From assembly GCF_900107645.1 (NCBI RefSeq), contig NZ_FNQN01000005.1, forward strand, positions 112,193-176,192: a stretch of DNA of 64,000 bases, read 5' to 3'. The stretch's first letter is position 1, and the number at the start of each line of letters is the position of its first letter. The position numbers and the translations under genes are program-made. The notes below the pieces were generated by a model. It worked only from the letters and a program-made list of their open reading frames with translations, had not been told where the DNA came from and ran no database searches. Source of the stretch: Desulfuromusa kysingii (GTDB taxonomy: Bacteria > Desulfobacterota > Desulfuromonadia > Desulfuromonadales > Geopsychrobacteraceae). Shown here piece after piece: positions 3,703 to 22,095 of this stretch.

Positions 3703-4854
3703 CTATTCAGCGAGAACGAATTTACCATTTTTGACTTGAACCATCACCATTGAATCGACATCAAGCCCATTATGGTCATCACTGCTGATGTTATAGATGC
3801 CCGACACACCGATATAATTTGTCGTGGTTTCGATCTCATTGCGTAATGTTTCGGGATCGGTTCCGACCTTTTTGATCGCGTTGGAAACAATCATAATCGC
3901 GTCCCAAGCATATCCCGAGTGGGTATTGATGGGGAATTGTTTGTCATAACCTTTTTCTTTATAAAGTCGGATGAATTCCTGGATGACTGGTTTTTGCGGG
4001 TCAGAGTCTGGTAATTCATCAGCCACCATGAGTTTGGTTGCCGGCATCCGATCGCCCTCGCTTGCAGTACCAGCTAATTCAATATACTTAGGATCTGGTA
4101 AACCATGACATTGGAATAGCGGGATATCGATCCCCAGTTGAACTTTGTTTTTCGCGAGAATGGAACCGGCCGGACCAATTGTCCAGGCTAATAGCGCTTG
4201 GGGATGACTATTTTTAACCTTTGTCAGCTGCACTGTCATATCGGTGTCACGGGTCCCAAAGGATTCACGTGCAACGATTTCAATCCCATATTTCGGGGCT
4301 AGTTTGTCCATCCAGCCTGAACCGTCTTTCCCAAAACCGTCGGCTGCTGCGAGTAAAGCAACCTTTGTCAAACCTTTGCTTTTAAGGTAGATAAACAGCC
4401 GCTCTACAGCGATACTGGATCGTTGTGGGGATTTAAACACCCACTTGGTTGGACCGAACTTCCCTCCCATAATGACCGGATCACCACCAACGGTCATAAA
4501 TATAGGTGTCCGACCTTTATCGACAACTTGTTTCACATTCATGCCGGTATCTGTGAGGGTGGGACCAATAATCGCAGCGACCTTATCCTTATAGATATAT
4601 TTCTTGGCAATGGAAGCCGTTTTCGCAGGATCAGCCTCGGTGTCAGCAATTTTTAACTCCAACATTTTGCCGTGAATCCCCCCCGCAGTGTTGATCTTGT
4701 CAACAACCATCTCAGCGACAAGTTTTGTCGGTGTGCCAATGAAGGCACCACGACCGGAGAGGTCAAAGAAAGCACCAAGCTTGATGTTGTCAGCAGCCAT
4801 TGCAGACGAGGCGAGAAGTGCAAGACCTAGCAGCAGTCCCATTACTTTGTTCAT
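3703..4854 (-). CDS. livK: Branched-chain/aromatic amino acid ABC transporter substrate-binding protein (LivK type)
   Basis: 383 residues with a signal peptide ending SSAMA-A (about 21), then a periplasmic-binding-protein type I fold of the LivJ/LivK family (IKLGAFFDLSGRGAFIG, followed by INTAGGIHGKMLEL). The start has AGGAG ten bases upstream. It is not next to the other liv genes but shares a TrpR-type operator with their promoter region, so I infer that it supplies the LivHMGF transporter with aromatic rather than branched-chain amino acids. A terminator follows directly, so it is monocistronic, as expected for an abundant binding protein. Ligand choice is an inference from context. Confidence 0.8.
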   Translation of the reverse strand: MNKVMGLLLGLALLASSAMAADNIKLGAFFDLSGRGAFIGTPTKLVAEMVVDKINTAGGIHGKMLELKIADTEADPAKTASIAKKYIYKDKVAAIIGPTLTDTGMNVKQVVDKGRTPIFMTVGGDPVIMGGKFGPTKWVFKSPQRSSIAVERLFIYLKSKGLTKVALLAAADGFGKDGSGWMDKLAPKYGIEIVARESFGTRDTDMTVQLTKVKNSHPQALLAWTIGPAGSILAKNKVQLGIDIPLFQCHGLPDPKYIELAGTASEGDRMPATKLMVADELPDSDPQKPVIQEFIRLYKEKGYDKQFPINTHSGYAWDAIMIVSNAIKKVGTDPETLRNEIETTTNYIGVSGIYNISSDDHNGLDVDSMVMVQVKNGKFVLAE

Positions 4855-5141: not shown

Positions 5142-6620
5142 TTAATAGTCGAAAAATTCCAACCGGACCTTTGGTAACTGACTTTCTGTTCCGGTCAGAT
5201 ACTCATCCACGCATCGGGCGATCTCACGACCTTCACTGATGGCCCATACGACCAGACTCTGTCCTCGGCGGCAGTCGCCAGCAGCAAAGACACCGTCAAC
5301 TGTGCTCATGCGTGTTTTTGGGTCGGTTACGACATTGGAACGTTGATCGGTTTTGCAACCGGCCTGTTTTATCAGTTCTGAGCGTGGACCCAGAAAGCCC
5401 ATAGCCAAGAGGACCAGATCGCACTTCCAAATCTGTTCGCTCCCCGGTATCTTCTCGGGGCGTCCGTCTTTCCATTTCACTTTGACAGTCTCCAGCCCAG
5501 TGACGTTTTTGTCCCTGCCAATAAAGCGGGTGGTCATAATCTCATAGTATACGTCGCCGCCCAAAACGTGCATCTCTTCAACCGAGGTGCTGACGCGCAT
5601 AATGCGTGACCATTGCGGCCAGGGATTGTTTGGGCTGCGTTCTGCCGGAGGGTGTTCCAGCAGCTCAAAGTTGAAGACACTGGTTGCCCCTTGTCGCATA
5701 GAGGTGCCGATACAGTCTGAACCGGTATCACCACCACCGATAACGATCACCTTTTTCCCTTTCGCGTTGATCAATCTCTGCCGCGGATGAAGTGCGGCGA
5801 TATTATGATCTCCCCAACAGGCACGGTTCTGTTGCGGTAAAAATTCCATGGCAAAGTGGATACCTTTTAATTCCCGTCCTTCAACAGGGAGATCCCGTGG
5901 CTCTTCAGCCCCTGTCGCCAAAACGACAGCATCAAATGAACTTTTGATCTCATCAAAGGTGGCATCCTTGCCAACCTCGCAGGAATAACGGAACTCAATC
6001 CCTTCCGCCACCAACAGATCAATCCGCCGTTGTACTCTTTGTTTCCACAACTTATAGTGGGGAATGCCATACATCAGCAAACCACCGGCGCGGTCAGATT
6101 TTTCGATGACTGTTACTTTGTGACCTGCTCGATTGAGCTGCTGGGCACAGGCGAGACCGGCAGGGCCGCCACCGATGATGGCGACACTTTTGCCGGTGCG
6201 TTGCTCTGGTGGTTGAGGACGGATCCAGCCTTCCTCAAAACCTTTATCAACGATTGAGACCTCATGCAGTTTAATGGTGACTGGGGGCTCATTGATTCCG
6301 AGCACGCAGGACGTTTCACAGGGCGCGGGACAGACCCGGCCGGTAAATTCCGGAAAGTTATTGGTCGCGTGTAGAGCGGTCAACGCTTGCTTCCATTGAC
6401 CACGATAAACCAGATCGTTCCATTCTGGGATCAGGTTTCCTAGTGGGCATCCAGTCATACAGAAAGGGACACCACAATCCATACAACGGGCAGCCTGAGT
6501 TTTGACTTTCTCTTCGCTGGGATAATTATAGTGTTCGTCAAAATTTTGTAGTCGGGAATTAACCGGTTGCAGGGTTTTATCACGACGGCCATGTTTTATA
6601 AATCCACGTGGATCACCCAT
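5142..6620 (-). CDS. gltD: Glutamate synthase, small (beta) subunit
   Basis: 492 residues. It passes electrons from NAD(P)H through FAD and iron-sulfur centres to the large subunit, for the synthesis of glutamate from glutamine and 2-oxoglutarate. An N-terminal cysteine cluster (CMDCGVPFC, then CPLGN and CPAPCETSC) binds 4Fe-4S centres. GGGPAGLACA (about residue 150) is the FAD dinucleotide fold, and GGGDTGSDC (about 298) is the pyridine nucleotide fold. AAGDCRRGQSLVVWAI near the C-terminus is the second FAD contact. The gene overlaps the end of gltB by 8 bases, which implies translational coupling. Confidence 0.95.
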   Translation of the reverse strand: MGDPRGFIKHGRRDKTLQPVNSRLQNFDEHYNYPSEEKVKTQAARCMDCGVPFCMTGCPLGNLIPEWNDLVYRGQWKQALTALHATNNFPEFTGRVCPAPCETSCVLGINEPPVTIKLHEVSIVDKGFEEGWIRPQPPEQRTGKSVAIIGGGPAGLACAQQLNRAGHKVTVIEKSDRAGGLLMYGIPHYKLWKQRVQRRIDLLVAEGIEFRYSCEVGKDATFDEIKSSFDAVVLATGAEEPRDLPVEGRELKGIHFAMEFLPQQNRACWGDHNIAALHPRQRLINAKGKKVIVIGGGDTGSDCIGTSMRQGATSVFNFELLEHPPAERSPNNPWPQWSRIMRVSTSVEEMHVLGGDVYYEIMTTRFIGRDKNVTGLETVKVKWKDGRPEKIPGSEQIWKCDLVLLAMGFLGPRSELIKQAGCKTDQRSNVVTDPKTRMSTVDGVFAAGDCRRGQSLVVWAISEGREIARCVDEYLTGTESQLPKVRLEFFDY

Positions 6621-9600
6621 GAATGGACTCCTTCTCTTTCTCAGCCTGAGCTGCCCTTTCGGTCAGCACACGGCGGTATTCGCGGGGGAAAACCCGGACA
6701 AAACGGGAGAGGTAGTTATCCCAGTCTGCAAGGATATCAGCCGCTCGCGGTGAACCGGTCAATCTGTGGTGCTTGTCGACGGTCTGCCGCAACCATTTGG
6801 CATCCTCATCTTCGATAGCCATCTGTTCGAGATCAATCATCGCCGGATTACAGCGGCGACGGAAGCGATTATCGTCATCGAGGACGTAAGCAAATCCACC
6901 TGACATCCCTGCAGCAAAATTGCGCCCCGTGCGCCCCAGACAGACGACGCGACCTCCGGTCATGTATTCACAGCCATGGTCACCTGTCCCTTCGACCACA
7001 GCAGTGGCGCCCGAGTTACGGACGCAAAAGCGCTCGCCAGCTTTGCCGGCAAAATAGGCTTCACCTCCAGTCGCTCCGTAGAGGACAGTATTGCCTATAA
7101 TTGAATTATCCTGCCAGACGAAGGATACTTTTGGATCCGGACGGATACTGATTTGTCCACCGGCCATCCCTTTACCAACGTAGTCATTGGCTTCACCGAC
7201 CAGGCGCAGATCAATGCCGGGAGCGAGGAAGGCACCAAAACTCTGTCCGGCGATCCCTGTCAGTTGAATATTGATGGTTCCGGCAGGCAGACCCTCGCGA
7301 CCGTGTAACAAAGCGATCTGACCCGAAAGCATCGTCGCAAAGGTACGGTCAGAGTTGCGAATAGGTAATTGAATATTCACTACTTCCTGCCGCTCTAGGG
7401 CCGGTTTAGCGAGGGTGATCAGTTGATTATCCAATTGCTTTTCGAGGCCATGTTCTTGCCCTTGGATCCGTCGCGTTGCAACCCCTTCACTTACTTGGGG
7501 CTTGGTTAGAATTCGCGAAAAGTCGAGACCTTGATTCTTCCAATGTTTGATGGCGTCATCCATTTCAAGGTACTGGGTTTGACCGATGAGTTCATCAAGA
7601 CTACGTACACCGAGCTCTGCCAGCAGTTCGCGCACCTCTTCAGCGAGGAAGGTAAAATAGTTGATGACATGTTCGGGTTTCCCATTGAACTTGGCACGCA
7701 TCGCCTTGTCCTGAGTGGCGACGCCGACAGGACAGGTGTTGAGGTGGCATTTACGCATCATGACGCAGCCAATAGTCACCAAAGCGACAGTTGCAAAGGC
7801 ATACTCTTCAGCGCCTAGCAAGGCTGCGATAATAACGTCACGCCCAGTACGTAGCTGACCGTCAGTTTGAACAGTGATCCGTCCACGTAAATCATTGAGT
7901 ACCAACGTTTGTTGTGTCTCCGCCAAGCCGATTTCCCAAGGAACCCCAGCGTGTTTAATGGAGGAGGTTGGCGAGGCTCCGGTGCCACCATCGTAACCAG
8001 AAACGATGACCCGTTCTGCGTGGCCTTTGCTGACCCCTGCAGCAACAGTCCCGACACCGACTTCACTTACCAGTTTAACCGTAATGTCAGCTTTGGGATT
8101 ACAGTTCTTTAGATCAAAAATCAATTGGGCGAGATCTTCGATGGAGTAGATATCATGATGTGGTGGCGGCGAAATCAAAGTCACCCCTGGAACGCTGAAA
8201 CGGAGTTCGCCAATATATTCACTCACCTTGTGCCCGGGGAGTTGTCCTCCTTCGCCGGGCTTTGCGCCTTGAGCAATCTTGATCTGTAATTCGTCCGCGT
8301 TGACCAGATAGTGTGGAGTAACCCCAAAGCGTCCAGAAGCCACCTGTTTGATCGCGCTGCGGCGGAGGTCACCGTTGGCGTCTGGAGTAAAACGACGTGG
8401 ATCTTCACCCCCTTCACCAGTGTTGGATTTACCCCCAAGGTGGTTCATGGCAATAGCGAGGGTTTCGTGAGCTTCGGGTGAAATTGAACCGAGGCTCATG
8501 GCTCCGGTACAAAAACGTTTGACGATCTCACTGACAGGCTCAACTTCATCAAGTGGAATCGGTTCGTTTTGAGGTCTGAACTTGAATAACCCCCGCAGGG
8601 TGCAGAGACGCTCACTTTGATTGTCAACCTGAGCAGAAAAGCGCTTATAGTCCTCGCGACTACCGGATCGTACCGCATGTTGCAGCAAGGCGATAACTTC
8701 CGGGTTCATCAGATGAACTTCTCCTTCACGCCGCCAGGAATATTCACCTCCACGGTCAAGGTTGCGATTGCGATCGACTCGAGTGGCATAAGCCAGTTGG
8801 TGACGCATCAGACTTTCGGTAGCAACTTCCAGCAAGCTCGCTCCACCGATACGACTGGCGGTACCAGGGAAGTATTTGGCAGTGAATTCCTGATCCAGAC
8901 CAACAATCTCAAAGACCTGCGCACTACAGTAACTCTGCAAGGTGCTGATCCCCATTTTTGAAAAGACCTTGAGTAAGCCTTTTCCGATCGCTTTGATATA
9001 ATTTTTACTGTAATGGTGGAGGATATCGGTCTCTTCGTCGGCATGATCGTTACCATCCTGACCGGGCAGCATCCCCTGAGTGACCATGTCTTGTAATGTT
9101 TCGAAAGCGAGGTATGGGTTAATGGCGGTTGCACCGTAACCGAGCAACAGAGCGAAGTGGTGAACGTCGCGGGCTTCACCGGTTTCAACGACCAGAGAAC
9201 ACTGGCTACGCTTAGCGACCCGGATCAGGTGGTGATTGATTCCAGATAAAGCTAACAATGCAGGAATCGGGGCTTTGTCAGCACATACACCACGATCAGA
9301 AAGAACCAAAATGGTCCGGCCAGCGTCAACAGCCTCCTCCGCTTCGATAAACAAAGCCTGCAGACGTTGTTCCAAAGCTTCCGGACCTTGAGTCGCATCA
9401 AAAAGGGTGCTCAAGGTCGTCCCGCGGAATCCTTGAATATCACTGTGTCGGAGCTGTTCCAGCACGTCGTTGGTGACGATCGGGTGATCCAATTCCAGCA
9501 TTTCGCAATGTTCAGGACCAGGCATAAGAATGTTGCGCGCCGGTCCCAGATACTGGGTCAGACTCATAACAATCTCTTCACGCAGAGGATCAATCGGTGG

Positions 9601-11178
9601 ATTGGTGATCTGCGCAAAAAGTTGCTTGAAGTACCAGTAGAGCAACTTACTGTTCTTTGACAACACGGCAACCGGAGTATCGGTTCCCATAGAACCAACG
9701 GGCTCCTGACCATTCTTTGCCATCGGTGCTAAAACGACTCGCATCTCTTCCAGGGTATAGCCAAAGCTCCCTTGTGTGCGGCGGAGTTCGCTGAGGCTGG
9801 GGACCCGTTTTGTTGCCGGAGCTGGAAGGTCATCTAATCTGATCAAATGTTCACGAACCCACGAAGCATAAGGGTGCTCTGCTGCGAGGTCACCTTTAAT
9901 TTCATGATCTTCTTTAAATTGACCGGTTTCAATATCGACCAGGATCATCTTGCCGGGTGCCAGTCTCTCTTTACGCAGAATCTTCTCTGCAGGGACATCC
10001 AGAACTCCAGCTTCCGAAGCGTAGATAATCTCGTCGTCACTGGTAATCCAGTAACGGGCAGGGCGCAGACCGTTACGGTCGAGGATTGCGACAATCTGTT
10101 TGCCATCGCAGGCGACAATGTTCGCTGGGCCGTCCCAGGGTTCCATCATCGTTGCGTGGTATTCAAAGAAACCCTTAACGTCGGGGCGCAGGTGGGCTTT
10201 GGAGACCCAGGCTTCGGGCACCAGCATCGCCAGCGAGTGGGCCAGACTACGACCTGTGACCACCAGCAGTTCCAGAGCGTTATCAAGACAAGCGGTATCA
10301 GAACTCCCCTCAATGATGACAGGGTCAAGATCAGTGACTCCGTCAGCCAGATCGAGATGAGCGAATAACGCGGTCCGAGCACGCATCCGGTTAATGTTGC
10401 CACGCAGGGTATTGATCTCACCATTGTGGGCGATATAGCGAAACGGCTGAGCCAGATCCCAGGTGGGGAACGTATTGGTGCTATAACGTTGGTGGACAAA
10501 AGCCAAGGCACTGACGAGACGTTCATCATCCAATTCGGGGTAAAAGGTATTTAGTTGCTCAGAAAGGAGCATCCCTTTGTAGAGGATGGTACGGCTGGAG
10601 AGGGAGCAGACATAGAACATCTCAGCGCCAGCAAGTTTGTTGTTGCGAATGTGATTTTCAGCCCGTTTACGGGCCAGATAGAGCATCAGGTCGAAACGTT
10701 CGGCTTCGACTTCACCGCGACCGACAAAAACCTGCATTACCCGTGGTTCAAGAGCACGGGCATTGCGGCCGATGCCGCTACTATCGGTCTGAATCTCACG
10801 CCAGCCAAGGACGTTGCAACCGACGCGAACCAGTTCACGATCCAACGCGGCAATGCAAGCTTCACGAGAAACTGAATCGATAGGCAGGAAGATCATTCCG
10901 GCGCCATAATCACCCGCTACGGGGAGTTCAAAATCGCAGACTTCATGATAGTAGGTGTCTGGTATCTGAATCATCAGGCCAGCGCCATCACCATCCAATG
11001 GGTCCGCTCCTACTGCGCCTCGATGGGTCAGGTTGTAAAGAATCTCGATACCACGTTTAACGATACTATGACTCTTTTTACCCTTGATGTTGGCAATAAA
11101 ACCGACACCACAGTTATCATGCTCGTTAGCTGGATCGTACAGGCCCTGTGCGGGCGGCATACCGATATGATTTGTCAT
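6613..11178 (-). CDS. gltB: Glutamate synthase, large (alpha) subunit
   Basis: 1521 residues from the chosen start. It carries the class II glutamine amidotransferase domain whose catalytic Cys lies in HDNCGVGF, the central and FMN-binding synthase domains, the 3Fe-4S cysteines in CVMMRKCHLNTCPVG, and the C-terminal beta-helix repeats (GxTGGEAYFAGKAGERF). The ATG at 11178 (MTNHIGMPPAQGLYDP) is preferred to an ATG 96 bases upstream because AGGA precedes it and family members begin close to the amidotransferase domain. Ammonia released from glutamine is channelled to the synthase site. gltBD lies between livK and the paaK end of the aromatic operon in the same direction, so glutamate for transamination may be the link, although a separate promoter is likely. 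Confidence 0.95.
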   Translation of the reverse strand: MTNHIGMPPAQGLYDPANEHDNCGVGFIANIKGKKSHSIVKRGIEILYNLTHRGAVGADPLDGDGAGLMIQIPDTYYHEVCDFELPVAGDYGAGMIFLPIDSVSREACIAALDRELVRVGCNVLGWREIQTDSSGIGRNARALEPRVMQVFVGRGEVEAERFDLMLYLARKRAENHIRNNKLAGAEMFYVCSLSSRTILYKGMLLSEQLNTFYPELDDERLVSALAFVHQRYSTNTFPTWDLAQPFRYIAHNGEINTLRGNINRMRARTALFAHLDLADGVTDLDPVIIEGSSDTACLDNALELLVVTGRSLAHSLAMLVPEAWVSKAHLRPDVKGFFEYHATMMEPWDGPANIVACDGKQIVAILDRNGLRPARYWITSDDEIIYASEAGVLDVPAEKILRKERLAPGKMILVDIETGQFKEDHEIKGDLAAEHPYASWVREHLIRLDDLPAPATKRVPSLSELRRTQGSFGYTLEEMRVVLAPMAKNGQEPVGSMGTDTPVAVLSKNSKLLYWYFKQLFAQITNPPIDPLREEIVMSLTQYLGPARNILMPGPEHCEMLELDHPIVTNDVLEQLRHSDIQGFRGTTLSTLFDATQGPEALEQRLQALFIEAEEAVDAGRTILVLSDRGVCADKAPIPALLALSGINHHLIRVAKRSQCSLVVETGEARDVHHFALLLGYGATAINPYLAFETLQDMVTQGMLPGQDGNDHADEETDILHHYSKNYIKAIGKGLLKVFSKMGISTLQSYCSAQVFEIVGLDQEFTAKYFPGTASRIGGASLLEVATESLMRHQLAYATRVDRNRNLDRGGEYSWRREGEVHLMNPEVIALLQHAVRSGSREDYKRFSAQVDNQSERLCTLRGLFKFRPQNEPIPLDEVEPVSEIVKRFCTGAMSLGSISPEAHETLAIAMNHLGGKSNTGEGGEDPRRFTPDANGDLRRSAIKQVASGRFGVTPHYLVNADELQIKIAQGAKPGEGGQLPGHKVSEYIGELRFSVPGVTLISPPPHHDIYSIEDLAQLIFDLKNCNPKADITVKLVSEVGVGTVAAGVSKGHAERVIVSGYDGGTGASPTSSIKHAGVPWEIGLAETQQTLVLNDLRGRITVQTDGQLRTGRDVIIAALLGAEEYAFATVALVTIGCVMMRKCHLNTCPVGVATQDKAMRAKFNGKPEHVINYFTFLAEEVRELLAELGVRSLDELIGQTQYLEMDDAIKHWKNQGLDFSRILTKPQVSEGVATRRIQGQEHGLEKQLDNQLITLAKPALERQEVVNIQLPIRNSDRTFATMLSGQIALLHGREGLPAGTINIQLTGIAGQSFGAFLAPGIDLRLVGEANDYVGKGMAGGQISIRPDPKVSFVWQDNSIIGNTVLYGATGGEAYFAGKAGERFCVRNSGATAVVEGTGDHGCEYMTGGRVVCLGRTGRNFAAGMSGGFAYVLDDDNRFRRRCNPAMIDLEQMAIEDEDAKWLRQTVDKHHRLTGSPRAADILADWDNYLSRFVRVFPREYRRVLTERAAQAEKEKESIHG

Positions 11179-11511
11179 CGTTGGTCCTAAATCTATGAGG
11201 TAACTGGGGCAGAGGATATTTTTGGAACCACTGCCGGGTAAGTTTTGACGAAACGGCGAAGCCGATGCGGTCAAATATCTTGCAGCAAATAGCCGTGGGC
11301 GTTAGAAAAACGTCCGAGCCTAAGAATTCAATCAGTTTCTTGGGATGTCTTTGTCAGACTGAACTGTGAATATGACAAGAAAGCGCGACATAAATCAGAA
11401 AGATAGCCAAAGACATTACCACTTACTGTGTTTAAAATCCAACGAAAAATATATGCAAAACAGCATAATCCTTTTTGTCATCGACCTTTATAGCAATAAA
11501 CCCGCGGTAAA
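11179..11511. other. 333-base gap between gltB and livF-paaK
   Basis: No gene, RNA or convincing terminator was seen here. The gap should contain the gltB promoter on the - strand, but no good sigma70 or sigma54 pair stands out. A short TGTCTTTG/CAAAGACA inverted repeat (about 11346 and 11421), separated by more than 60 bases, is probably chance. Confidence 0.4.
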
Positions 11512-13599
11512 CTAAACAATTTCATCCTCAATACGGTTGTCAAAAACCCGCTGACTTTTCTTTTCTGACCGAGGGAGGCTGGCATAATCAACCAGTTCCA
11601 GATCAATGGAAACCAGCAACTGTTTTTTAACCTGATGGGTCACTTCGTGGCTGAGTTCCGGGCTGCGTTTGGGATCGACATTTTCGGCGCGTTCGACAAC
11701 CAAACGGAGGTGGTCGCGTTCGGCAGTATCACGGGTTAAATGGATTTGGAATTCGGAGCCGATTCCCGGAACGGATGATAAGATGGTATCAATGCTGCTG
11801 GGGTAGATATTGACACCACGGAACTTGATGGTGTCATCACTGCGTCCTTTGATCCGAGAATGACGCGGCAAAATACTGCCACAGTCGCAACGGCCGGGAA
11901 TGATCCGAGTGATGTCTCGGGTCCGGTAACGGATCAGCGGAGCTCCTTCCTTGCACAGCGATGTGACAACCATCTCTCCCCACTCCCCATCCGGTAGTGG
12001 CAATAAGGTTTCTGGGTCGAGAATTTCAACCAGATAATAATCGCCCCAGTAATGAATGCAGTCATGCTCGCTGCATTCAACGCCGGCTCCGGGGCCGTAG
12101 AGTTCAGTGAGCCCAGTGATATCAAACAATTCTGCCCCACCGAATAGCTCGGATATTTTTTGTCGCATCGAACGGCTGGACCGTTCTGAACCATAAATGA
12201 TCTTTTTAACGGCAATTCGATCGGCAACGCCACGTTTGTGGATCTCTTCTGCCATCAATAACGCCATGGATGCTGTGGAACAAAAAACAGTTGATTGAAA
12301 ATCGAGTAAAAATTGAATCTGCATGTCAATATTACCGGGACCAACAGGGACGGCCAGAGCGCCGATCTTCTCACAACCCAGTTGGAAGCCCATGCCCGCA
12401 GTCCAGACGCCATAGCCGACCGCAATCTGCACCCGGTCCAGAGGTGTGACCCCGGCCATCTGATAACAACGGGCGAAAAAATCGGTCCAATCATCGAGGT
12501 CTTTCTGGGTGTAGCAGAGAACTTTTCGTTTTCCGGTTGTCCCTGATGAGGCGTGGACGCGGACGACTTGTTCGAAAGGGACAGAGCGCAGTGGGAACGG
12601 GTAGCCATCACGCAGGTCTTCAGCGGTGGTAAACGGGAGTTTTTGTAAATCCTCCAGAGATTGGATTGTCTCCGGAGTGATGTTGAGTTGATCGAATTTT
12701 TTCCGGTATTCAGCCGAACCTTCGTAGGCGTGGCGCACTGTCCACTGAAGTCCTGCGAGCTGATGGGTTTTGAGTTCGGCCTCATTGGTAAACGCGGGCA
12801 TAAAGTTCTGTAGCTGCATGTTGGTCTTCTCCAGGCGAATATTGGTCAGTCCAGCAGCACCTAAACGGCTGGCGGCTGGGTTTGCTTTACTGGCAGTTCC
12901 GAGAAACGTTGAACGGAGCACAGGATCGTTTAATAAATCTCGACTTTTCCCCTGCTCAACGATTTTCCCGTTGGCCATCAGGTAGGCATTGTCCGAAGCT
13001 GAAAGTGCCCGTGCGGCATTTTGTTCAACCAGCAGGATCGTGGTCCCGGAACGGGAAAGTTGCTGGACAATGGCAAAGATTTCATCGGTAATTTTGGGTG
13101 CCAGTCCGAGGCTGGGTTCATCCAATAGCAATAAGCTTGGTTTTGCCATCAAGGCCCGTCCCATTGCGAGCATCTGTTGTTCGCCCCCTGACAGGGTGCC
13201 GGCCAATTGTTGCTGCCGCTCATGGAGTTTAGGAAAACGGGCAAAAACGTCATCGATCCGCAGGGTGGTCTCGGATTTTGGGAGTTTTAGCGGGATGGCT
13301 CCAAGTTGGAGATTTTCTAACACCGATAAATGACTGAAAACCTCACGTCCTTCGGGAGAGAGAGCCAAGCCACGACGCACCATCTGTGCCGGGCTGGAAC
13401 TGGTGACTTTTTTTCCGTTGAGGCTGATCTCACCGGCTGAGGGCTTAATCAGCCCCATAAGGCATTTCAGCAAGGTGCTTTTGCCTGCTCCGTTGGCCCC
13501 CACCAAGGCCACTGTTTCACCCTGGTTGATCTGCAGATCGATTCCAAACAGAGCCTGAGCTGCGCCATAGTGAGCGGTGAGATTATTGATTTTCAGCAT
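11512..13599 (-). CDS. LivF ABC ATPase fused to phenylacetate-CoA ligase (PaaK)
   Basis: One uninterrupted frame of 695 residues. Residues 1-236 are a complete LivF-type ATPase: GANGAGKST (Walker A), LSGGEQQ (signature) and LLLLDEPSLGLAP (Walker B). A linker of about 24 residues leads to a complete AMP-forming phenylacetate-CoA ligase, with HASSGTTGKRK (phosphate loop), ITGLTELYGPG and RYRTRDITRII. The PaaK part begins at an internal ATG (12819) preceded by GGAG, and from there is 435 residues, the normal length for that enzyme. The fusion would tie the aromatic amino acid importer to aryl-acetate activation. The ATG at 13599 is chosen because LivF proteins begin like MLKINNL; a GTG 48 bases upstream is possible. 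It lies downstream of livG with a repeat-containing gap. Confidence 0.9.
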   Translation of the reverse strand: MLKINNLTAHYGAAQALFGIDLQINQGETVALVGANGAGKSTLLKCLMGLIKPSAGEISLNGKKVTSSSPAQMVRRGLALSPEGREVFSHLSVLENLQLGAIPLKLPKSETTLRIDDVFARFPKLHERQQQLAGTLSGGEQQMLAMGRALMAKPSLLLLDEPSLGLAPKITDEIFAIVQQLSRSGTTILLVEQNAARALSASDNAYLMANGKIVEQGKSRDLLNDPVLRSTFLGTASKANPAASRLGAAGLTNIRLEKTNMQLQNFMPAFTNEAELKTHQLAGLQWTVRHAYEGSAEYRKKFDQLNITPETIQSLEDLQKLPFTTAEDLRDGYPFPLRSVPFEQVVRVHASSGTTGKRKVLCYTQKDLDDWTDFFARCYQMAGVTPLDRVQIAVGYGVWTAGMGFQLGCEKIGALAVPVGPGNIDMQIQFLLDFQSTVFCSTASMALLMAEEIHKRGVADRIAVKKIIYGSERSSRSMRQKISELFGGAELFDITGLTELYGPGAGVECSEHDCIHYWGDYYLVEILDPETLLPLPDGEWGEMVVTSLCKEGAPLIRYRTRDITRIIPGRCDCGSILPRHSRIKGRSDDTIKFRGVNIYPSSIDTILSSVPGIGSEFQIHLTRDTAERDHLRLVVERAENVDPKRSPELSHEVTHQVKKQLLVSIDLELVDYASLPRSEKKSQRVFDNRIEDEIV
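12819..12835 (-). promoter_or_regulatory. paaK: Nested ribosome site and start for free PaaK
   Basis: On the - strand GGAG lies about ten bases before an in-frame ATG at 12819 (protein MQLQNFMPAF). This is exactly where a stand-alone PaaK would begin, so the message may give both the fusion and the free ligase (11512-12819). Confidence 0.5.
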
Positions 13600-13649
13600 A
13601 ATTAAACCATTAAAGTAACAAGTTATAAAAAGCCACACGCGGATCACAT

Positions 13650-13757
13650 CTTTAACGCAGAAGGGGCAAGAAGCTTTCTTTCAGAGTTAAATTACAGCGA
13701 TGAGATTCTAGGATTTCTCAGCGATCTCAGCATTTCTTTGCGTCCCTCCACTAAAAA
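13650..13757. repeat. Dispersed intergenic repeat, copy 1
   Basis: It starts with TTTAACGCAG and ends with a region rich in TCTCAGCGATCTCAGC, roughly the inverted counterpart. It resembles copies at 17951-18060 and 30347-30500, and fills the gap between livG and livF-paaK. Confidence 0.5.
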
Positions 13758-13758
13758 A

Positions 13759-14523
13759 TTAAGCCGTAGCGCCCATTCGACCCAGATATGCCTCCAGCAC
13801 TAACGGATTGCAGCGGACCTCATCTGGAGTCCCTGTGGCGATACATTTACCACTGTCCAGCACCACAACCTGATCAGCGATCTCCATGACCAGATCCATA
13901 TCATGTTCGACCAGAAGCATGGTATGCCCAGCGCTTCTCAACAAGCGTAACTGCTCAGCAACAGTGGCTGTTTCTTCGGCGTTGAGACCTGCGACCGGTT
14001 CATCGAGCAAGATCAATTGTGGTTTTCCTACCGTAGCCCGAGCTAATTCAACGCGCTTTTTATCACCATAGGCTAATACTTCGGCAGGCCAGTTGGCTTT
14101 GTCGGCCAAGCCGAAGCGGTCCAGAGCTTCCAGTGCCCGTAATTTCAAACTTCTTTCCCGATGGCGCAAATAGGGGAGCCGCAACATAGCCATGAGCATC
14201 GAATCGCCCCCTTCACTGGTCAAACCAGTTAAAATATTTTCTAGAACGGTCAAACGGGGGAAAATTTTTAAATTCTGAAAGGTTCGAGATATCCCCAGTC
14301 TGCTGATTTTGTATGCTGGAAGCGAAGCGATCTGCTGTTGTTGAAAAAAAATCTGCCCCGAACTTGGTTCGATAACCCCGGTCATACAGTTAATCAAGGT
14401 ACTTTTTCCGGCACCATTTGGCCCGATCAGAGCCGTCAGTTGTCCTTTGGGAACGGTGAAAGTCACCTCACTCAGGGCCGGCAGACCGCCAAAGTTTTTA
14501 CTGACGTTCTCAAGACGCAACAT
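13759..14523 (-). CDS. livG: ABC transporter ATPase LivG
   Basis: 254 residues, the usual LivG length. GPNGAGKST (Walker A, about residue 33), LAYGDKKRVELARA (the LivG form of the signature) and LILLDEPVAGLN (Walker B) are intact. It pairs with the LivF domain to drive the LivHM permease. It overlaps the end of livM by 14 bases, so translation is coupled. Part of the - strand operon livH-iorA-iorB-livM-livG-livF/paaK. Confidence 0.93.
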   Translation of the reverse strand: MLRLENVSKNFGGLPALSEVTFTVPKGQLTALIGPNGAGKSTLINCMTGVIEPSSGQIFFQQQQIASLPAYKISRLGISRTFQNLKIFPRLTVLENILTGLTSEGGDSMLMAMLRLPYLRHRERSLKLRALEALDRFGLADKANWPAEVLAYGDKKRVELARATVGKPQLILLDEPVAGLNAEETATVAEQLRLLRSAGHTMLLVEHDMDLVMEIADQVVVLDSGKCIATGTPDEVRCNPLVLEAYLGRMGATA

Positions 14524-15508
14524 TTTTACGCCTCCGCAGTGCGAGCTTGATTTTGATGGTGTCGATCAAGCCAGTGACCAACCCTTGAGGCAGGAACATC
14601 AGCACGAGAACCAGAATGCCGCCATGAACAAAATCTTTGTAGGTCTCAAACATATCAACCCACTCTGGAAGCAGGGTAATCAGGGCCGCGCCAAACAAAG
14701 ATCCCCAGATTGATCCCATGCCACCAACGACGACCATGATGACCATATCTGTCGAGGTGAAAATACCAAAGGAGTCAGGACTGACAAAAGAATAGCAGTG
14801 GGCAAAGAGACTGCCGGCAAGTGACGCCAGCACTGCCGAGAGGATAAATACTTTAATTTTTGCGTTGCGGGTATTGACCCCCAGAGCTTGTGCTGCAACT
14901 TCGTCTCCGGCCACTGCTGAGAGACCGCGACCGACGCCACTGCGGACCAGATTCAGGCAGAGCATCAGACTGACCATGACAAAACTCCAAAGCAGGTAAT
15001 GGAGCCGGAATTCATCATCAAACTGAACGTCGCCAATCGAGAGATAAGGGATGCCGGAAAAACCACTGGGACCACCAGTCACTTCATCCCACTGCAGCAG
15101 GACCGTGTACATGACGAAGTTTAACCCCAGAGTCGCCATAGCCAGATAATGACCCGAAAGACGCAAGATCGGGACAGCGATTAACAGTGCGACCAACGCT
15201 ACCAAGATGGCGACGATCACCATGGCAAGCCAGGGAGGCATTCCAAGGGTGACAGTTGCAATGGCTGAACCATAGGCTCCCATACCGAAAAAGGCGGCAT
15301 GACCAAGAGAGATCTGTCCGGCGTAACCGATGAAAAGGTTCAGCCCGAGCACCACCAGAGCATTGATGGCGATTAGATTCGTCAGTCCGAGGGTGTAGGG
15401 ATTGTCTTCAATCAGTGGGAAGAGCAACAGTGCTAATGAGAGCCCGGTGACAGAGAGACCAGTGCGGTGGAGGTAAATAAAATAGAGGAATTTTTGTTTG
15501 CTGGTCAT
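14510..15508 (-). CDS. livM: ABC transporter permease LivM
   Basis: 332 residues, eight to ten membrane helices. It carries the family phrases GLNLFIGYAGQISLGHAAFFGMGAY near the N-terminus, and VVGGMGSIWGSLFGAALI and LFLPQGL near the C-terminus. It forms the inner-membrane channel with LivH. Located between iorB and livG, it shows that transport and oxidation genes are mixed within one operon. Confidence 0.93.
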   Translation of the reverse strand: MTSKQKFLYFIYLHRTGLSVTGLSLALLLFPLIEDNPYTLGLTNLIAINALVVLGLNLFIGYAGQISLGHAAFFGMGAYGSAIATVTLGMPPWLAMVIVAILVALVALLIAVPILRLSGHYLAMATLGLNFVMYTVLLQWDEVTGGPSGFSGIPYLSIGDVQFDDEFRLHYLLWSFVMVSLMLCLNLVRSGVGRGLSAVAGDEVAAQALGVNTRNAKIKVFILSAVLASLAGSLFAHCYSFVSPDSFGIFTSTDMVIMVVVGGMGSIWGSLFGAALITLLPEWVDMFETYKDFVHGGILVLVLMFLPQGLVTGLIDTIKIKLALRRRKNVAS

Positions 15509-15597: not shown

Positions 15598-16104
15598 TCA
15601 TTTGTTACTGTCCAAGCCTTTGTGGAAGGCGGCTAAATTTTGTTCTACAAACCTTGCCGGAGCCAACTGTTTGATTGCGGTTTCACAGTCTTCGATGCCG
15701 CAAAACAACACTTGCTTCTGTACGGCCAAGCCTAACAACACGAGGTTCAAGAGGACGGCATTACCAAGATCACGGGCGATTTTTGCAGCGTCAATCCGGA
15801 TCCCTTCACCGGTATTTTCAGCATTGAGCAACAGTTTTCCATCGGCTTTAAGTAATGATTGATGAACCGGAAGATTAGCTTCCCAGAGGAGCAGCCCCAA
15901 GTCGGCCTGACCAGTGCGTACCAGCGGACTGGCAAAATTGCCAACCTTGATGGTCGAGAGGACGGTGCCACCCCGTTGAGCCATGCCGTGGGTTTCCGAG
16001 GTCAACACGGGAATCCCTGTGTTGACGGCAACCTGTGCAATCACTCGGGTCAAAAACAGCACACCCTGTCCGCCGATGCCACTGACGATAATCTGCTGTT
16101 TCAT
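15598..16104 (-). CDS. iorB: Indolepyruvate:ferredoxin oxidoreductase, beta subunit
   Basis: 168 residues of the gamma-type domain of 2-oxoacid:ferredoxin oxidoreductases. GIGGQGVLFLTRVIA near the N-terminus and SETHGMAQRGGTV are hallmarks. The start at 16104 overlaps the iorA stop as ATGA and has a perfect AGGAGG seven bases upstream; a longer in-frame extension has no such support. With IorA it oxidatively decarboxylates aryl-pyruvates (indolepyruvate, phenylpyruvate, hydroxyphenylpyruvate) to aryl-acetyl-CoA and reduced ferredoxin. Somewhat shorter than many IorB proteins but with the core complete. Confidence 0.92.
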   Translation of the reverse strand: MKQQIIVSGIGGQGVLFLTRVIAQVAVNTGIPVLTSETHGMAQRGGTVLSTIKVGNFASPLVRTGQADLGLLLWEANLPVHQSLLKADGKLLLNAENTGEGIRIDAAKIARDLGNAVLLNLVLLGLAVQKQVLFCGIEDCETAIKQLAPARFVEQNLAAFHKGLDSNK

Positions 16105-17927
16105 GATTTTTCCTCCTTGATGATGGCCGCAACTGGGCAAACCGGGATACAGGTGCCGCAACCGATGCAGCGATCCTGATCAACCACAGCGATATTCCGG
16201 GTTCTATCCATGGATAGAGCCGGACATTCGAAAGCACTGGTACATTTTTCACAGCCGATACAGTTGTCCTGAATGGTGACGGTAAAGGATTTCTGGGCTT
16301 TACGAGTTGCCGGATCCATGATACAGCCATGGCGGGCAATCAAAACCGCAACGCCCCCCTCAGGGGAGCGAATATAGCTATCAGCTTGTTTCAACAACGC
16401 TTCAAAGCGTTCATGATCATAGGGGTTGCAGGTTTCCAGAAATTCAACCCCACTGGCTTTGACCAGAGGTTCAATAGCAATGGCTTTGGTGGGTTTATTC
16501 CCGGCCGCGACCCCCATGTGGGGAACGGGCTGGCCACCTGTCATTGCCGCAGTGGCGTTGTCGAGGATGACAACAATCATCCGGGTTTGCTGGATAACGG
16601 CATTAATCAGCGCTGGAATTCCGGCGTGAAAAAAGGTTGAATCACCGATGGTGACAACGATGGTCGGAAATTGTCCATCATCCTGCTGATAGGCTTGGTA
16701 GAAACCTGCCCCCTGACTGATGCAAGCCCCCATGCAATGGACGGTGTGGACGGCGCCCAGATTCATCCCCAGGGTGTAGCAACCGATATCGGAAGGGAAG
16801 ATCCCTTTGGGAAAACATTTCTTGATGGTGTAAAAGGCCGTTCGATGGGAACAGCCCGGACAGAGAGAGGGGCGTTGTCCACGTCGAGCTGCCGGTTTCT
16901 CTGCGGGTGGCGCAAGCTGAAGGAAATCAGCTAGCGCTTGATGGATCACATCGGGTGTCAGCTCTCCCTCACGGGGGACTCCCCCTGTTTGCTTGCCAAC
17001 GGCTCCGGGGTGGGCGAGTTGTAGCTCAATGACCGGATAGGTTTCTTCCAGAATCAGCACTCGATCGTACTTTTTCTGCATCAGCTTACAGAAATCGGGG
17101 TTTAACGGGTAGGGCATCAACACCTGGTAAAGATCGATAGTATGATCTAACCCGAGTTCTTCGAGCAGGTCGACCAGATTACTGTAAGCAATCCCTGATG
17201 CTATAAAAGCTGTCCGGGGTTGGCTTTCGTTACCAGAGAGCAGTCGTGGCTGCCAGGCAGGTTCGAGCGCAATTTCTTCCAGATGACGGTTCAGGTTTCG
17301 ATGCAGCTGCGGTAGAAAAGCAGGTGTTGCAGCCCACCGGGTCGGATTGGGCTCAAAGTCGGCTTGTCGCTTCAATTCTATCGGTTTTTCCAGGGAAACA
17401 TTCTGCCGCGAATGGCAGATTCTGGTTGTCGGTCGTAAGACAATGTTGGTTTCATATTTCTCCGACAATTCAAAAGCCGGTTGAATCATCGCTTTAGCTT
17501 CAGCGGGACTAGAGGGGTCAAGTACTGGTACCCGCGCCTGTAAGCAGAAGAGTCGCGTGTCTTGCTCATTTTGTGAACTGTGGGGGCCGGGATCATCGGC
17601 GACAATCGTTAGCATTCCCCCTTTGATTCCGATATAAGCGGTACGCATAAAAGGATCGGCCGCCACGTTCAGGCCCACTTGTTTCATTACTGCGACAGAA
17701 CGTTTGCCAGTGTAACTGGCTGCCAGAGCGACCTCAAAAGCAATTTTTTCGTTCACAGACCATTCGATATGGAGGGGTTCGACCGCTTGTTCCTGTCGAT
17801 CAATCACCGCTTGAAGAATCTCTGTCGAGGGGGTGCCGGGATAGGCGGCGGCGACCTGGCAACCCGCTTCAATCAGTCCCTGACCGATCGCTTCGTTGCC
17901 CATGAGAAGTTCAATTTGATTTTTCAT
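16101..17927 (-). CDS. iorA: Indolepyruvate:ferredoxin oxidoreductase, alpha subunit
   Basis: 608 residues. The N-terminal pyrimidine-binding domain (GNEAIGQGLIEAGCQVAAAYPGTPSTE is the family opening) is followed by the thiamine diphosphate domain with GDSTFFHAGIPALINA. Two C-terminal 4Fe-4S ferredoxin clusters have motifs CIGCEKC and CIGCGTCIPVCP. It performs the thiamine-dependent oxidation of aryl-pyruvates and hands electrons to ferredoxin. It lies between livH and iorB. A repeat-containing gap of 138 bases separates it from livH, and it overlaps iorB by four bases. Confidence 0.95.
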   Translation of the reverse strand: MKNQIELLMGNEAIGQGLIEAGCQVAAAYPGTPSTEILQAVIDRQEQAVEPLHIEWSVNEKIAFEVALAASYTGKRSVAVMKQVGLNVAADPFMRTAYIGIKGGMLTIVADDPGPHSSQNEQDTRLFCLQARVPVLDPSSPAEAKAMIQPAFELSEKYETNIVLRPTTRICHSRQNVSLEKPIELKRQADFEPNPTRWAATPAFLPQLHRNLNRHLEEIALEPAWQPRLLSGNESQPRTAFIASGIAYSNLVDLLEELGLDHTIDLYQVLMPYPLNPDFCKLMQKKYDRVLILEETYPVIELQLAHPGAVGKQTGGVPREGELTPDVIHQALADFLQLAPPAEKPAARRGQRPSLCPGCSHRTAFYTIKKCFPKGIFPSDIGCYTLGMNLGAVHTVHCMGACISQGAGFYQAYQQDDGQFPTIVVTIGDSTFFHAGIPALINAVIQQTRMIVVILDNATAAMTGGQPVPHMGVAAGNKPTKAIAIEPLVKASGVEFLETCNPYDHERFEALLKQADSYIRSPEGGVAVLIARHGCIMDPATRKAQKSFTVTIQDNCIGCEKCTSAFECPALSMDRTRNIAVVDQDRCIGCGTCIPVCPVAAIIKEEKS

Positions 17928-18065: not shown

Positions 18066-18926
18066 TTACTTTCCTAACAACCCTTTAGGGCGCACAAACA
18101 ACACCAGCAACAACACCACAAAAGCGACCACATCTTTATAGGCGCTGGAAATATATCCAGCAGAAAGTGATTCCAACAATCCCAGCCCGAGACCACCGAG
18201 AATGGCCCCCGGAAACGACCCAAAACCACCGAGAATAGCGGCGGCAAAACCTTTAAGCCCGAGTAAGACACCGACATCGTAGCTCAATGTGGTGATCGGG
18301 GTGACCAAAACCCCGGCGAGGCCACCGAGAGCACCAGCGATGGCATAGCTGGTCAACCTCACTCGACCTGCGGGGATGCCGACAACTGCCGCCGCGGTGG
18401 GATTAGAAGCAACAGCCCGCATCGATAGACCCAAAGAGGTCCGATAAAAAAACCACGTTAACAAGCCGATTGCGAGGACAGTTAAAAAGAGGATCCAGAG
18501 GGCTTGAGGGAGAACACTGGCACCGAAGATTTGCACCGGAACATCGGGGGTGAGGGGCGGCAAGGCCATGCGGTTTTTCCCCCAGACCAATTTTATGATC
18601 CCCCGCAAAATGATTGACAGGCCAACGGTGAGAAAGATCAACACCAGATGATTGTCCGAGCGTGCCGGTCGAAGACCAAAACGTTCCACCAACATTGCCA
18701 CCAGAGCGACCCCTGAAACCGAGAGCAGCAGACCGGGAATCATCGGTAATCCGGCGGTCAATAAGGCCGAAAACATCAGCATCCCACCCAGAGAAACAAA
18801 GTCAACCTGGACAAAATTGACGATGCCCATGGTGTTGTTGACAACACAAAAACCGAGGGCAATCAGGGCATAGATGGCCCCAATCGTGATGCCGGAAAAA
18901 AGATATTGTAGGAAATCCTGAGACAT
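18066..18926 (-). CDS. livH: ABC transporter permease LivH
   Basis: 286 residues with about eight membrane helices. The opening GITIGAIYALIALGFCVVNNTMGIVNFVQ and later AILGGFGSFPGAILGG are LivH hallmarks. It is the first gene of the - strand aromatic operon and is divergent from trpR across a 114-base gap holding the TrpR operator. The message would have a leader of roughly 95 bases if a TACAAT inside the operator is its -10. Confidence 0.93.
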   Translation of the reverse strand: MSQDFLQYLFSGITIGAIYALIALGFCVVNNTMGIVNFVQVDFVSLGGMLMFSALLTAGLPMIPGLLLSVSGVALVAMLVERFGLRPARSDNHLVLIFLTVGLSIILRGIIKLVWGKNRMALPPLTPDVPVQIFGASVLPQALWILFLTVLAIGLLTWFFYRTSLGLSMRAVASNPTAAAVVGIPAGRVRLTSYAIAGALGGLAGVLVTPITTLSYDVGVLLGLKGFAAAILGGFGSFPGAILGGLGLGLLESLSAGYISSAYKDVVAFVVLLLVLFVRPKGLLGK

Positions 18927-19315: not shown

Positions 19316-20110
19316 TTAAACCAACAACATCCGGTCAGAGACAAACTCTTCACCACGAACCTTGTAAAATTGTTCCAGCAGGTCTTCCACGGACATCGCT
19401 GCTTTTTCACTCCCTGAAACATCCAGAATAATTCTTCCCCCGTGAAACATGATCAACCGATTTCCCAGTTGGAGTGCCTGACGCATATTGTGGGTGACCA
19501 TCAAGGTGGTTAAGTCCTGATCTTCAATCAGTTTTTGGGTCAGTTCCAGAACTTGTTGTGCGGTCTTTGGATCAAGGGCGGCAGTGTGTTCATCAAGCAA
19601 GAGGATTTTGGGTTTGACTAAGGTTGCCATCAACAGGGTGAGAGCTTGGCGTTGTCCGCCAGAGAGTAAACCAACGCTGTCCTTCAAGCGGTTTTCCAGT
19701 TCCAGATTCAATTGAGCTAGTTGCTTGCGGAAAAGCTCCCGATCACTTCTTTGCACTCCACGTCTGAGACCATGAGGTTTCCCGCGCCGGTTTGCCAGGG
19801 CTAAATTCTGTTCAATGGAGAGTGGGCCGCAGGTTCCGAGCAATGGATCTTGAAAGACCCGGCTGATGAGTGATGCCCGTTGGTATTCAGGCCAGCGTGA
19901 GACCTCCTGTTCGTTAATCAGGATGTGTCCACTATCAATGGGGTAACTGCCAGAGAGGCAATTTAACAGGGTACTTTTCCCGGCCCCGTTGGAGCCAATG
20001 ACGGTAATAAAGTCCCCCTTTTTAACCCGAAGGTTGATGCCTGAAAGGGCGAGAACCTCATTGATGCTGCCACGGTGAAAAGTTTTAACCAGATCAGTTA
20101 CATGAATCAT
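19316..20110 (-). CDS. ABC transporter ATPase, TrpZ-like
   Basis: 264 residues with GSNGAGKST (Walker A), LSGGQRQA (signature) and ILLLDEHTAALDP (Walker B with His after Glu, usual for this subfamily). It overlaps the permease gene by four bases (ATGA). With the next two genes it forms a complete transporter of the type predicted to carry tryptophan in other bacteria (TrpXYZ). It faces trpR end to end across 29 bases. Substrate is inferred from family and from the neighbouring trpR. Confidence 0.85.
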   Translation of the reverse strand: MIHVTDLVKTFHRGSINEVLALSGINLRVKKGDFITVIGSNGAGKSTLLNCLSGSYPIDSGHILINEQEVSRWPEYQRASLISRVFQDPLLGTCGPLSIEQNLALANRRGKPHGLRRGVQRSDRELFRKQLAQLNLELENRLKDSVGLLSGGQRQALTLLMATLVKPKILLLDEHTAALDPKTAQQVLELTQKLIEDQDLTTLMVTHNMRQALQLGNRLIMFHGGRIILDVSGSEKAAMSVEDLLEQFYKVRGEEFVSDRMLLV

Positions 20111-20994
20111 CGACTGAAAACCTTCCCGCGCAATTTTGGCAAGGTTAGCGCTGCAACCACGAGCAAAGCGGTTAATAAGTTGAGGTCACTGGGGGTCAAT
20201 GAAAACGAGCCCAATTTTAGGCTCAATGCCAAGGCAATCGTCAGTCGATAAAGGACTGATCCGAGCAGAGCCGCAAGCAGGGCCCTGCCAATGGAGCGGC
20301 AACCGAACAACGTTTCACCGACAATCACTGAGGCTAACCCTGCCACAATGGTGCCAACGCCCATATTAACGTCGGCAGCGCCTTGGCTTTGACAGAGAAG
20401 AGCACCACTGACTGCGGCCAGTCCATTAGAGAGGCCGACGGTGAGGATAATGACCCGGTCGGTATTGACCCCTTGACTGGTGATCATCTGCGGATTGACC
20501 CCGGTCGCCTGCATCGCCAAACCAAAGGCTGTATGCAAGAGCCATAAAAGGAACAGTAACGCCAAGGAAGAGAGGAGACCGAAAAGCAGTGGCGCTGCAT
20601 TAAACATCCCGATTCCGGCATTGGTGAGTGGTTCTAATATGGTACTTTTACCGAGCAGAGTAATATTGGGCCGCCCCATAATGCGCAAATTGACAGAGTA
20701 AAGGGCGATCATGGTGAGGATTGATGCCAGCAGGTGGAGGATGCCAAATTTGGTATTGAGAACCCCAGTGACAACTCCAGCAAGAAAACCGGCAAGCAGG
20801 GCAAAAAGCAAAGATAAAAAGGGATCATATCCGGCGGTTATGGCGACAGCAGAAACCGCCGCTCCCAGAGGTAGACTGCCATCCACAGTCAGATCCGGAA
20901 AATCGAGAACCCGGAATGTCAGATAAACACCGAGAACCAGAAATCCATAAGCGAAGCCTTGTTCGAGGGCTCCCATGAAAGCAAAGTATGTCAT
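20107..20994 (-). CDS. ABC transporter permease, TrpY-like
   Basis: 295 residues with eight to nine membrane helices, of the branched-chain-permease-like family. It has the opening GALEQGFAYGFLVLGVYLTFRVLDFPDLTVDGS, typical of the permeases paired with PF04392 binding proteins. It is coupled to the ATPase by a four-base overlap and lies 153 bases behind the binding-protein gene. Confidence 0.85.
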   Translation of the reverse strand: MTYFAFMGALEQGFAYGFLVLGVYLTFRVLDFPDLTVDGSLPLGAAVSAVAITAGYDPFLSLLFALLAGFLAGVVTGVLNTKFGILHLLASILTMIALYSVNLRIMGRPNITLLGKSTILEPLTNAGIGMFNAAPLLFGLLSSLALLFLLWLLHTAFGLAMQATGVNPQMITSQGVNTDRVIILTVGLSNGLAAVSGALLCQSQGAADVNMGVGTIVAGLASVIVGETLFGCRSIGRALLAALLGSVLYRLTIALALSLKLGSFSLTPSDLNLLTALLVVAALTLPKLRGKVFSR

Positions 20995-21147
20995 ATGTTA
21001 TCTAGGGGACTGCGTTAAAAGGCTGAGCTGCCCCCTTTTTCACCTTCCTAAAACGATCAACTTTTGTGTGAGCGACCCCTTATGCTCGCTCGCATTTTCA
21101 ACCCCCTCAAAAGAGGCAGTGTGAATGTGGCTCTTATGTTGTGATGA

Positions 21148-22095
21148 TTACTCAATAATTTTGTCAGCTTTTTGCAACAATGCAGCTGGAATTTCAAGCC
21201 CCATTTTTGCTGCGGAACCGGGATTCAGGTGAATCCGGAACTCACGGAGTGTTTCGACTGGCATATCAGCAGGATTTGCCCCTTTGAGGGCTCGGCTGAC
21301 CATTTCTCCAGTTTGACGTCCCATTTTATAATAGTCGACGGCCAAGGCGGCAACCGCTCCCCGGGTCACGGAGTCAGTATCGGCAGCGAAGATGGGTAGC
21401 TTGGCCAGATAGCCGACCTGGGTAATTGCTTCAATTGCTGAAACGACAGTGTTATCCGTGGGAATATAGACGGCCTCGACTTTGCCAATCAGGCTCTTTG
21501 CTGCTTGGGAAACCCCGGCAGAGTTGCTAACGGTGGCCTCTTCGACAACAATCCCCTTTTTCTTGGCTTCTTCTTTGAGGACCCGAACAAGGGTGACAGA
21601 GTTCACTTCCCCGGAGTTATAAATGACCCCCATGGTTTTTAGTTCCGGGAGAAATTCAAGCATCAGCTCAAGTTGCCGATTGATCGGGCTCATGTCGGTG
21701 GTCCCGGTCACGTTTCCCCCTGGGCGCTCTAATGATTGGACCAGCCCTGCGCCAACAGGATCGGTAACAGCCGCAAAAATAATAGGGATATTTTTAATGA
21801 CCTGAGCACAGGCCTGAGCCGTAGGAGTCGCGATGCCAACTGCGACGTCAGGCTGTTCACCGAGGATCTGTTTGGCTATCAGGTTCGCGGTGGCGATATT
21901 GCCCTGGGCGATGTGATCATGGTAATCGACACTCAACCCTTGTGCCGCTAACTCATCCTTGACCCCTTGGCGCAAAGAATCGAGTGCGGGGTGTTCAACA
22001 ATTTGATTGAAAGAGACGGTATAGTCGGCCGCCAGGCTTGGAAATGCTGGTAACAACAGTAGTAGACAAAAGCATTGAGCGATAAAACGTTTCAT
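21148..22095 (-). CDS. ABC transporter substrate-binding protein, TrpX-like (PF04392 family)
   Basis: 315 residues with a signal peptide (cleavage after SLA, about 22), then a type I periplasmic-binding fold. NQIVEHPALDSLRQGVKDEL, VGIATPTAQA and VTDPVGAGLVQSLERPGGNVTGT are typical of the TrpX family. It is the first gene of the transporter operon. No TrpR-type operator was found in the 288 bases upstream, so control by the nearby TrpR is not shown for this operon. Confidence 0.85.
   Translation of the reverse strand: MKRFIAQCFCLLLLLPAFPSLAADYTVSFNQIVEHPALDSLRQGVKDELAAQGLSVDYHDHIAQGNIATANLIAKQILGEQPDVAVGIATPTAQACAQVIKNIPIIFAAVTDPVGAGLVQSLERPGGNVTGTTDMSPINRQLELMLEFLPELKTMGVIYNSGEVNSVTLVRVLKEEAKKKGIVVEEATVSNSAGVSQAAKSLIGKVEAVYIPTDNTVVSAIEAITQVGYLAKLPIFAADTDSVTRGAVAALAVDYYKMGRQTGEMVSRALKGANPADMPVETLREFRIHLNPGSAAKMGLEIPAALLQKADKIIE

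Follow-up and report, generated by a model that had tools for sequence, protein, structure and literature searches.

Vectorial acylation is usually argued from a loose association between a transporter and a ligase. Some bacterial genes, among them cheA, mcrB and infB, yield a long and a short form because translation can also begin at an in-frame start inside the gene. In Bacteroides, an indolepyruvate oxidoreductase (IOR) is reported to be encoded next to an AMP-forming arylacetate-CoA ligase, and a biosynthetic role has been proposed for it (PMC13285125). The proposal is that this pair serves the synthesis of aromatic amino acids, as in methanogens (PMC13285125; the methanogen work is cited in PMC4162585). 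Each part of the locus described below is known. No description of a LivF-PaaK fusion, of its hyperconserved linker or of a selected internal start was found in the open-licence papers searched, nor one of any ABC importer ATPase joined covalently to a CoA ligase.

The window, that is the whole 64,000-nucleotide stretch of Desulfuromusa kysingii DNA that was analysed, encodes a livF::paaK fusion gene on its minus strand. The frame is uninterrupted over 695 codons, from an ATG at 13599 to a TAA stop at 11514–11512, and upstream of 13599 it stays open to a GTG at 13647. Its product begins with a LivF-type ATPase and ends with a PaaK-type AMP-forming CoA ligase, both complete, and 25 linker residues connect the two (Table 1). 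A single unbroken frame with two complete domains, as given in the original prediction, was borne out by the length of the open reading frame, by profile matches over both domains and by intact motifs. The predicted masses, 76.6 kDa for the fusion and 49.1 kDa for the ligase from the internal ATG, come close to the products of about 76 and 48 kDa that had been anticipated.

Table 1. Features of the livF::paaK locus, with positions in the window.
Feature	Position	Strand	Remarks
livF::paaK fusion gene	11512..13599	(-)	695 aa, 76.6 kDa predicted
LivF-type ABC ATPase domain, residues 1-235	12895..13599	(-)	NF008626 1.5e-73, PF00005; motifs intact
Linker, residues 236-260	12820..12894	(-)	missing from unfused neighbour pairs examined
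Linker core SRLGAAGLTNIRLEK, residues 244-258	12826..12870	(-)	near-invariant, 53 sequences, mean entropy ~0.2 bit
Internal Shine-Dalgarno (SD) core GGAG	12829..12832	(-)	9 nt before internal ATG; SD-like in 51/53
Internal ATG (Met261), predicted start of free CoA ligase	12817..12819	(-)	ATG in 53/53
PaaK-type AMP-forming CoA ligase, domain and predicted separate product	11512..12819	(-)	435 aa, 49.1 kDa; full-profile TIGR02155
livG, partner ATPase	13759..14523	(-)	NF008449, PF12399
livM, permease	14510..15508	(-)	PF02653, NF008450
iorB, indolepyruvate oxidoreductase beta-like	15598..16104	(-)	NF004916, PF01558
iorA, indolepyruvate ferredoxin oxidoreductase alpha-like	16101..17927	(-)	TIGR03336 630 bits, cut-off 651
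livH, permease	18066..18926	(-)	PF02653, NF008011
livK-type substrate-binding protein of same system	3703..4854	(-)	PF13458, ORF, synteny

The Walker A, LSGGEQQ signature and Walker B motifs of the ATPase domain are all intact, and the domain is encoded together with LivG, LivH, LivM and a LivK-type binding protein. It scores 247 bits against an NCBIfam equivalog cut-off for LivF of 441, which is not reached. The domain is accordingly described here as a LivF homologue rather than as part of a branched-chain amino acid transporter. In the ligase, residues 274–689 match the PaaK profile TIGR02155 over nearly its full length (5e-121, profile positions 6–422 of 422). AMP-binding and AMP-binding_C_2 domains are present, the motifs SSGTTGK and GRSDD are intact, and the closest solved structure is 4r1l, a phenylacetate-CoA ligase. 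Since its score of 406 bits lies below the equivalog cut-off of 646, the protein is classed as a distinct subfamily of PaaK-type ligases with phenylacetate as a putative substrate; of the phenylacetate-CoA ligase first proposed, the enzyme type stood, whereas the named substrate was not established. Other apparent long PaaK frames (G260, G199, G419, G201 and L040) were inspected as possible second LivF fusions and none was found: the ligase was either separate and of normal length, or accompanied by an extra frame without a recognised domain.

The fusion is found well beyond this genome. A search of the order Desulfuromonadales gave a close match in 56 of 136 genomes, four of which have a standalone ligase only (G046, G039, G119 and G112). 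A fusion without internal stop is present in 52 of the 136, some of them cut by contig ends, and single-contig assemblies are represented (including G055, G088 and G089). The best full-length matches in the 60 relatives searched are all single frames without stops. Elsewhere in the phylum, a sample of 395 genomes yielded the fusion in 12, which belong to three additional families, at 65–73% identity, and a record named Desulforhopalus (L031) carries it at 83%. Dozens of assemblies made independently show the same architecture, so that a sequencing or assembly fault hiding a stop or frameshift between separate genes has a negligible probability. The original prediction had named two observations that would speak against a fusion, namely relatives in which the genes are always separate and a stop hidden in the linker. 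Most close relatives with the locus have the fusion, dozens of them free of stops, and because stop-free fusions recur in this way resequencing is unnecessary for accepting it. Taken together, the comparisons argue that the livF::paaK fusion is old and conserved.

Unfused livF-paaK neighbours also occur; an example is G188, where a stop codon closes livF and paaK begins with a GGAG and ATG of its own. Since such pairs exist, the fusion would most likely have arisen from adjacent genes that lost the intervening stop. In a tree of the ligase domain all fused sequences cluster together, along with a number of standalone ligases. Support at the base of this group is low (0.185), and one origin for all fusions is no more than plausible. 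One of the standalone ligases, that of G046, is nested in a fused subclade (surrounding support 0.745 and 0.827) and lacks a neighbouring livF. It retains CTGGAGAAGnnnnnnATG as well as what is probably a remnant of the linker: the upstream DNA, in which CGACTGGAGAAGCCGCACATG is preserved, resembles the linkers of fused genes (1 of 500 shuffles was as good). The start of this gene appears to be the former internal start. This standalone ligase (locus L140, near position 6862) keeps the internal SD and likely reflects a gene split that made use of the internal start. The operon of the Desulforhopalus record (L031; the strain is Desulforhopalus sp. IMCC35007) matches that of the window throughout, at 68–89% identity per gene, and the tree places its ligase within the window's own family. 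This pattern suggests horizontal transfer.

The linker was studied in 53 fusions, made up of the 52 from the search of the order together with Desulforhopalus or contigs of the same group. Its core, with the consensus SRLGAxGLTNIRLEK (residues 244–258), is near-invariant, and the flanking residues on both sides are variable. The dN/dS ratio is 0.017 in the core, compared with 0.131 in LivF, 0.074 in the PaaK ligase and 0.04 in a conserved ligase stretch, while synonymous change in the linker is ample (pS 0.53). This combination argues that the linker is translated and functionally relevant, under strong selection at the protein level, and that read-through matters. By amino-acid entropy alone the core ranks 53rd of 678 windows, level with the enzyme core. 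The region is predicted to be flexible, with a pLDDT below 50 over residues 234–263; as the alignment contained only three fused sequences, this low value is weak evidence of flexibility. The simplest reading of the core would be a short docking motif.

A near-invariant core in a region predicted to be flexible would also suit a processing site at which one chain is cut by a protease into separate LivF and PaaK. We consider this very unlikely, as separate genes would serve equally and the internal start would then be redundant. The synteny scans covered the window's own operon genes only and have no bearing on a linked protease. The synonymous sites of linker codons 251–252 (window 12844–12849, CTG or TTG followed by ACC) are unusually constrained, Leu251 being G-ending and ACC being used in 50 of 53 sequences each. 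The resulting CTGACC places a TGA in the +1 frame. A role of this TGA as a frameshift stop was considered and looks doubtful; it fails in three sequences, and a slippery site is not evident.

The internal start first noted as an ATG at 12819 with its own GGAG was found as described: the ATG occupies 12819–12817 and the GGAG 12832–12829, with a 9-nt spacer. The Met261 codon is invariably ATG in the 53 fusions, and positions 260 and 262 on either side of it are variable (1.75 and 2.75 bits). An SD-like tetramer precedes this ATG in 51 of 53 sequences, compared with 35 of 801 (4.4%) other in-frame ATGs. Furthermore, Glu257, inside the SD, is encoded by GAG in all 53, against a mean GAG use of 0.47 and a next highest value of 0.75 among 23 conserved Glu columns. 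Leu256 is G-ending in 51 of 53 with both CTG and TTG used, a share that none of the 54 conserved Leu columns exceeds. To control for shared ancestry, the remaining columns of the same genes served as the comparison. These patterns show that the internal SD and ATG are under nucleotide-level selection in the order. Because of this selection on the nested start, the two products from one gene that had been put forward as possible are now likely.

It could be argued that only the fusion is made, and that amino-acid constraint on LEK and Met has preserved the internal SD and ATG as a relic of the start that paaK once had. Such a relic would be expected where standalone orthologues begin near the same place, and their start codons do align within a few codons of the internal ATG. 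Moreover, the fusion of G416 is retained without any ATG at that site. Amino-acid constraint, however, cannot account for GAG in every sequence or for the G-ending Leu codons, and Met261 is surrounded by residues that vary freely. Where the SD has been lost, Glu257 has become Val (L168, L170 and L173, outside the order, where GAG has changed to GTG and the SD reads GGTG); because Val replaces it, Glu257 itself is not essential. A mere relic is thus unlikely.

Nucleotide-level selection on the internal start, the reading that we prefer, applies to the order. Outside it the signal weakens: besides the change to GGTG, the ATG is replaced by TTG in three sequences and is absent in G416. With the SD weakened or lost, or the ATG missing, the free ligase form would not be required everywhere. 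The long form would then be what is made generally, and the short form appears to be kept up chiefly within the order. The fusion of G416 (10883–12965 of locus L188) is the most divergent, at 65%, and has the linker SRLGVTGFTNVHLEP; as it lacks an internal ATG at that place, it is probably an obligate fusion.

As for the long form in the window, it is possibly made weakly, because no clear SD precedes the LivF start codon at 13599. The 159-bp spacer between livG and livF (13600–13758) is single copy in the genome, which ruled it out as a repeated element. There are relatives that differ from the window in that livF overlaps the end of livG, with ATGGAGG upstream.

The conserved operon in relatives reads livH-iorA-iorB-livM-livG-livF::paaK-livK. 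This setting, with iorAB between livH and livM and with livK downstream, goes beyond the original prediction, as does the hyperconserved linker. The start codon of iorB overlaps the stop of the adjacent iorA, the genes sharing four bases. IorA scores just below its profile cut-off (630 versus 651 bits) and IorB scores 191 against 227. The glutamate synthase genes gltB and gltD (5142–11274) separate livF::paaK from livK (3703–4854) in the window; in most relatives livK comes after the fusion, inside the fetched flank. In a few family f7 genomes the liv genes and the fusion have no iorAB next to them, and in G039 and G119 iorA-iorB-paaK occurs without liv. Just upstream of livH (19316–22095) lies a second ABC system resembling the TrpXYZ type, with a binding protein (PF04392), a permease and an ATPase, and its place beside livH is kept in three relatives (L146, L147 and L149).

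We favour a reading in which a Liv-type system imports aryl acids or similar compounds and acts together with IorAB, one ligase being tethered to the importer and another made free from the internal start (probability about 0.65). The fusion, the operon and the selection on linker and internal start come from sequence and its evolution; from here on, the presence of two proteins in the cell, the substrate, channelling and direction are what we infer, and the coupling of import to CoA activation is deduced from the fusion and the operon. LivF of a LivKHMGF-type ABC importer would be joined through the flexible, conserved linker to the PaaK-type CoA ligase in one gene, and the 76.6-kDa product would place one ligase per transporter at the cytoplasmic exit. 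An acid would enter through the LivK-type protein and the transporter, and the imported arylacetate-like compound would be converted on site to its CoA thioester by the tethered ligase and so be trapped, a case of vectorial acylation. From the same mRNA, the internal ribosome site and the ATG at 12819 would give a free 49.1-kDa ligase, which could lift the level of ligase above that of the transporter, pair with the tethered copy, or both. The CoA ester would be a substrate or product of the co-encoded IorAB, linking it to a 2-oxo acid. The substrate is left putative because ligase and IorA both score below their NCBIfam equivalog cut-offs, and Liv-type transporters carry many substrates.

Most plausibly, IorAB would work towards reductive carboxylation to arylpyruvates, so that aryl acids are salvaged to make aromatic amino acids. 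The operon might instead be catabolic: Liv would import aromatic or other amino acids, IorAB would form acyl-CoA by oxidising the 2-oxo acids, and released acids would be left to the ligase. Only the direction differs in this reading, which agrees equally with the fusion and with two products. Amino acids are the typical Liv cargo, peptide fermenters use IOR oxidatively, and a Bacteroides IOR has been reported in phenylacetate formation (PMC13285125). AMP-forming ligases, on the other hand, favour CoA-ester synthesis (PMC13285125), and a ligase fused to an importer better fits the uptake of free acids. The catabolic direction is possible and, in our view, rather doubtful.

A more far-reaching version of the coupling to import can tentatively be put forward. 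The motor of the importer would itself be a CoA ligase, so that import and thioesterification are physically coupled. The selected internal start would determine how much of the ligase is tethered and how much is free, tethered and free subunits perhaps forming mixed dimers, and the linker core would dock LivM, LivG or IorAB to form one importer-ligase-oxidoreductase channelling complex. Evolution has kept both the weld between ABC importer ATPase and CoA ligase and the separate start. Coupling and stoichiometry become testable by point mutations in the SD, the ATG and the linker core. The locus also provides a lead to function for an undescribed linker motif, and for those Liv-type transporters of other anaerobes whose genes adjoin PaaK and IOR genes.

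Compared with known systems, the analogy to the peroxisomal ABC transporter Comatose, discussed in connection with vectorial acylation (PMC6642094), is one of mechanism only. Comatose ties, and the fusion would tie, an ABC transporter functionally to acyl-CoA chemistry at a membrane, whereas Comatose is a eukaryotic full-length transporter with a thioesterase activity of its own and no ligase is fused to it as to the bacterial importer ATPase. Genes of the cheA, mcrB and infB type share the two in-frame products, here predicted, of which the shorter is the C-terminal part. In the window, by contrast, the shorter product makes up an entire enzyme, from a different family than the N-terminal domain, and the internal start lies where standalone relatives begin. 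The Bacteroides pair (PMC13285125) likewise combines an indolepyruvate-type oxidoreductase with an AMP-forming ligase; the operon described here adds a dedicated ABC importer, covalently joined to the ligase. PaaK-type arylacetate- or phenylacetate-CoA ligases (TIGR02155; PDB 4r1l, 2y27 and 2y4o) share the full-length match and the intact adenylation motifs, but the ligase in the window is joined to an ABC ATPase. With the LivKHMGF branched-chain amino acid importer the locus has in common the fold and motifs of LivF, and LivG, LivH, LivM and a LivK-type protein in the operon. It differs in that iorAB sits between livH and livM, and in that LivF bears a whole CoA ligase at its C-terminus.
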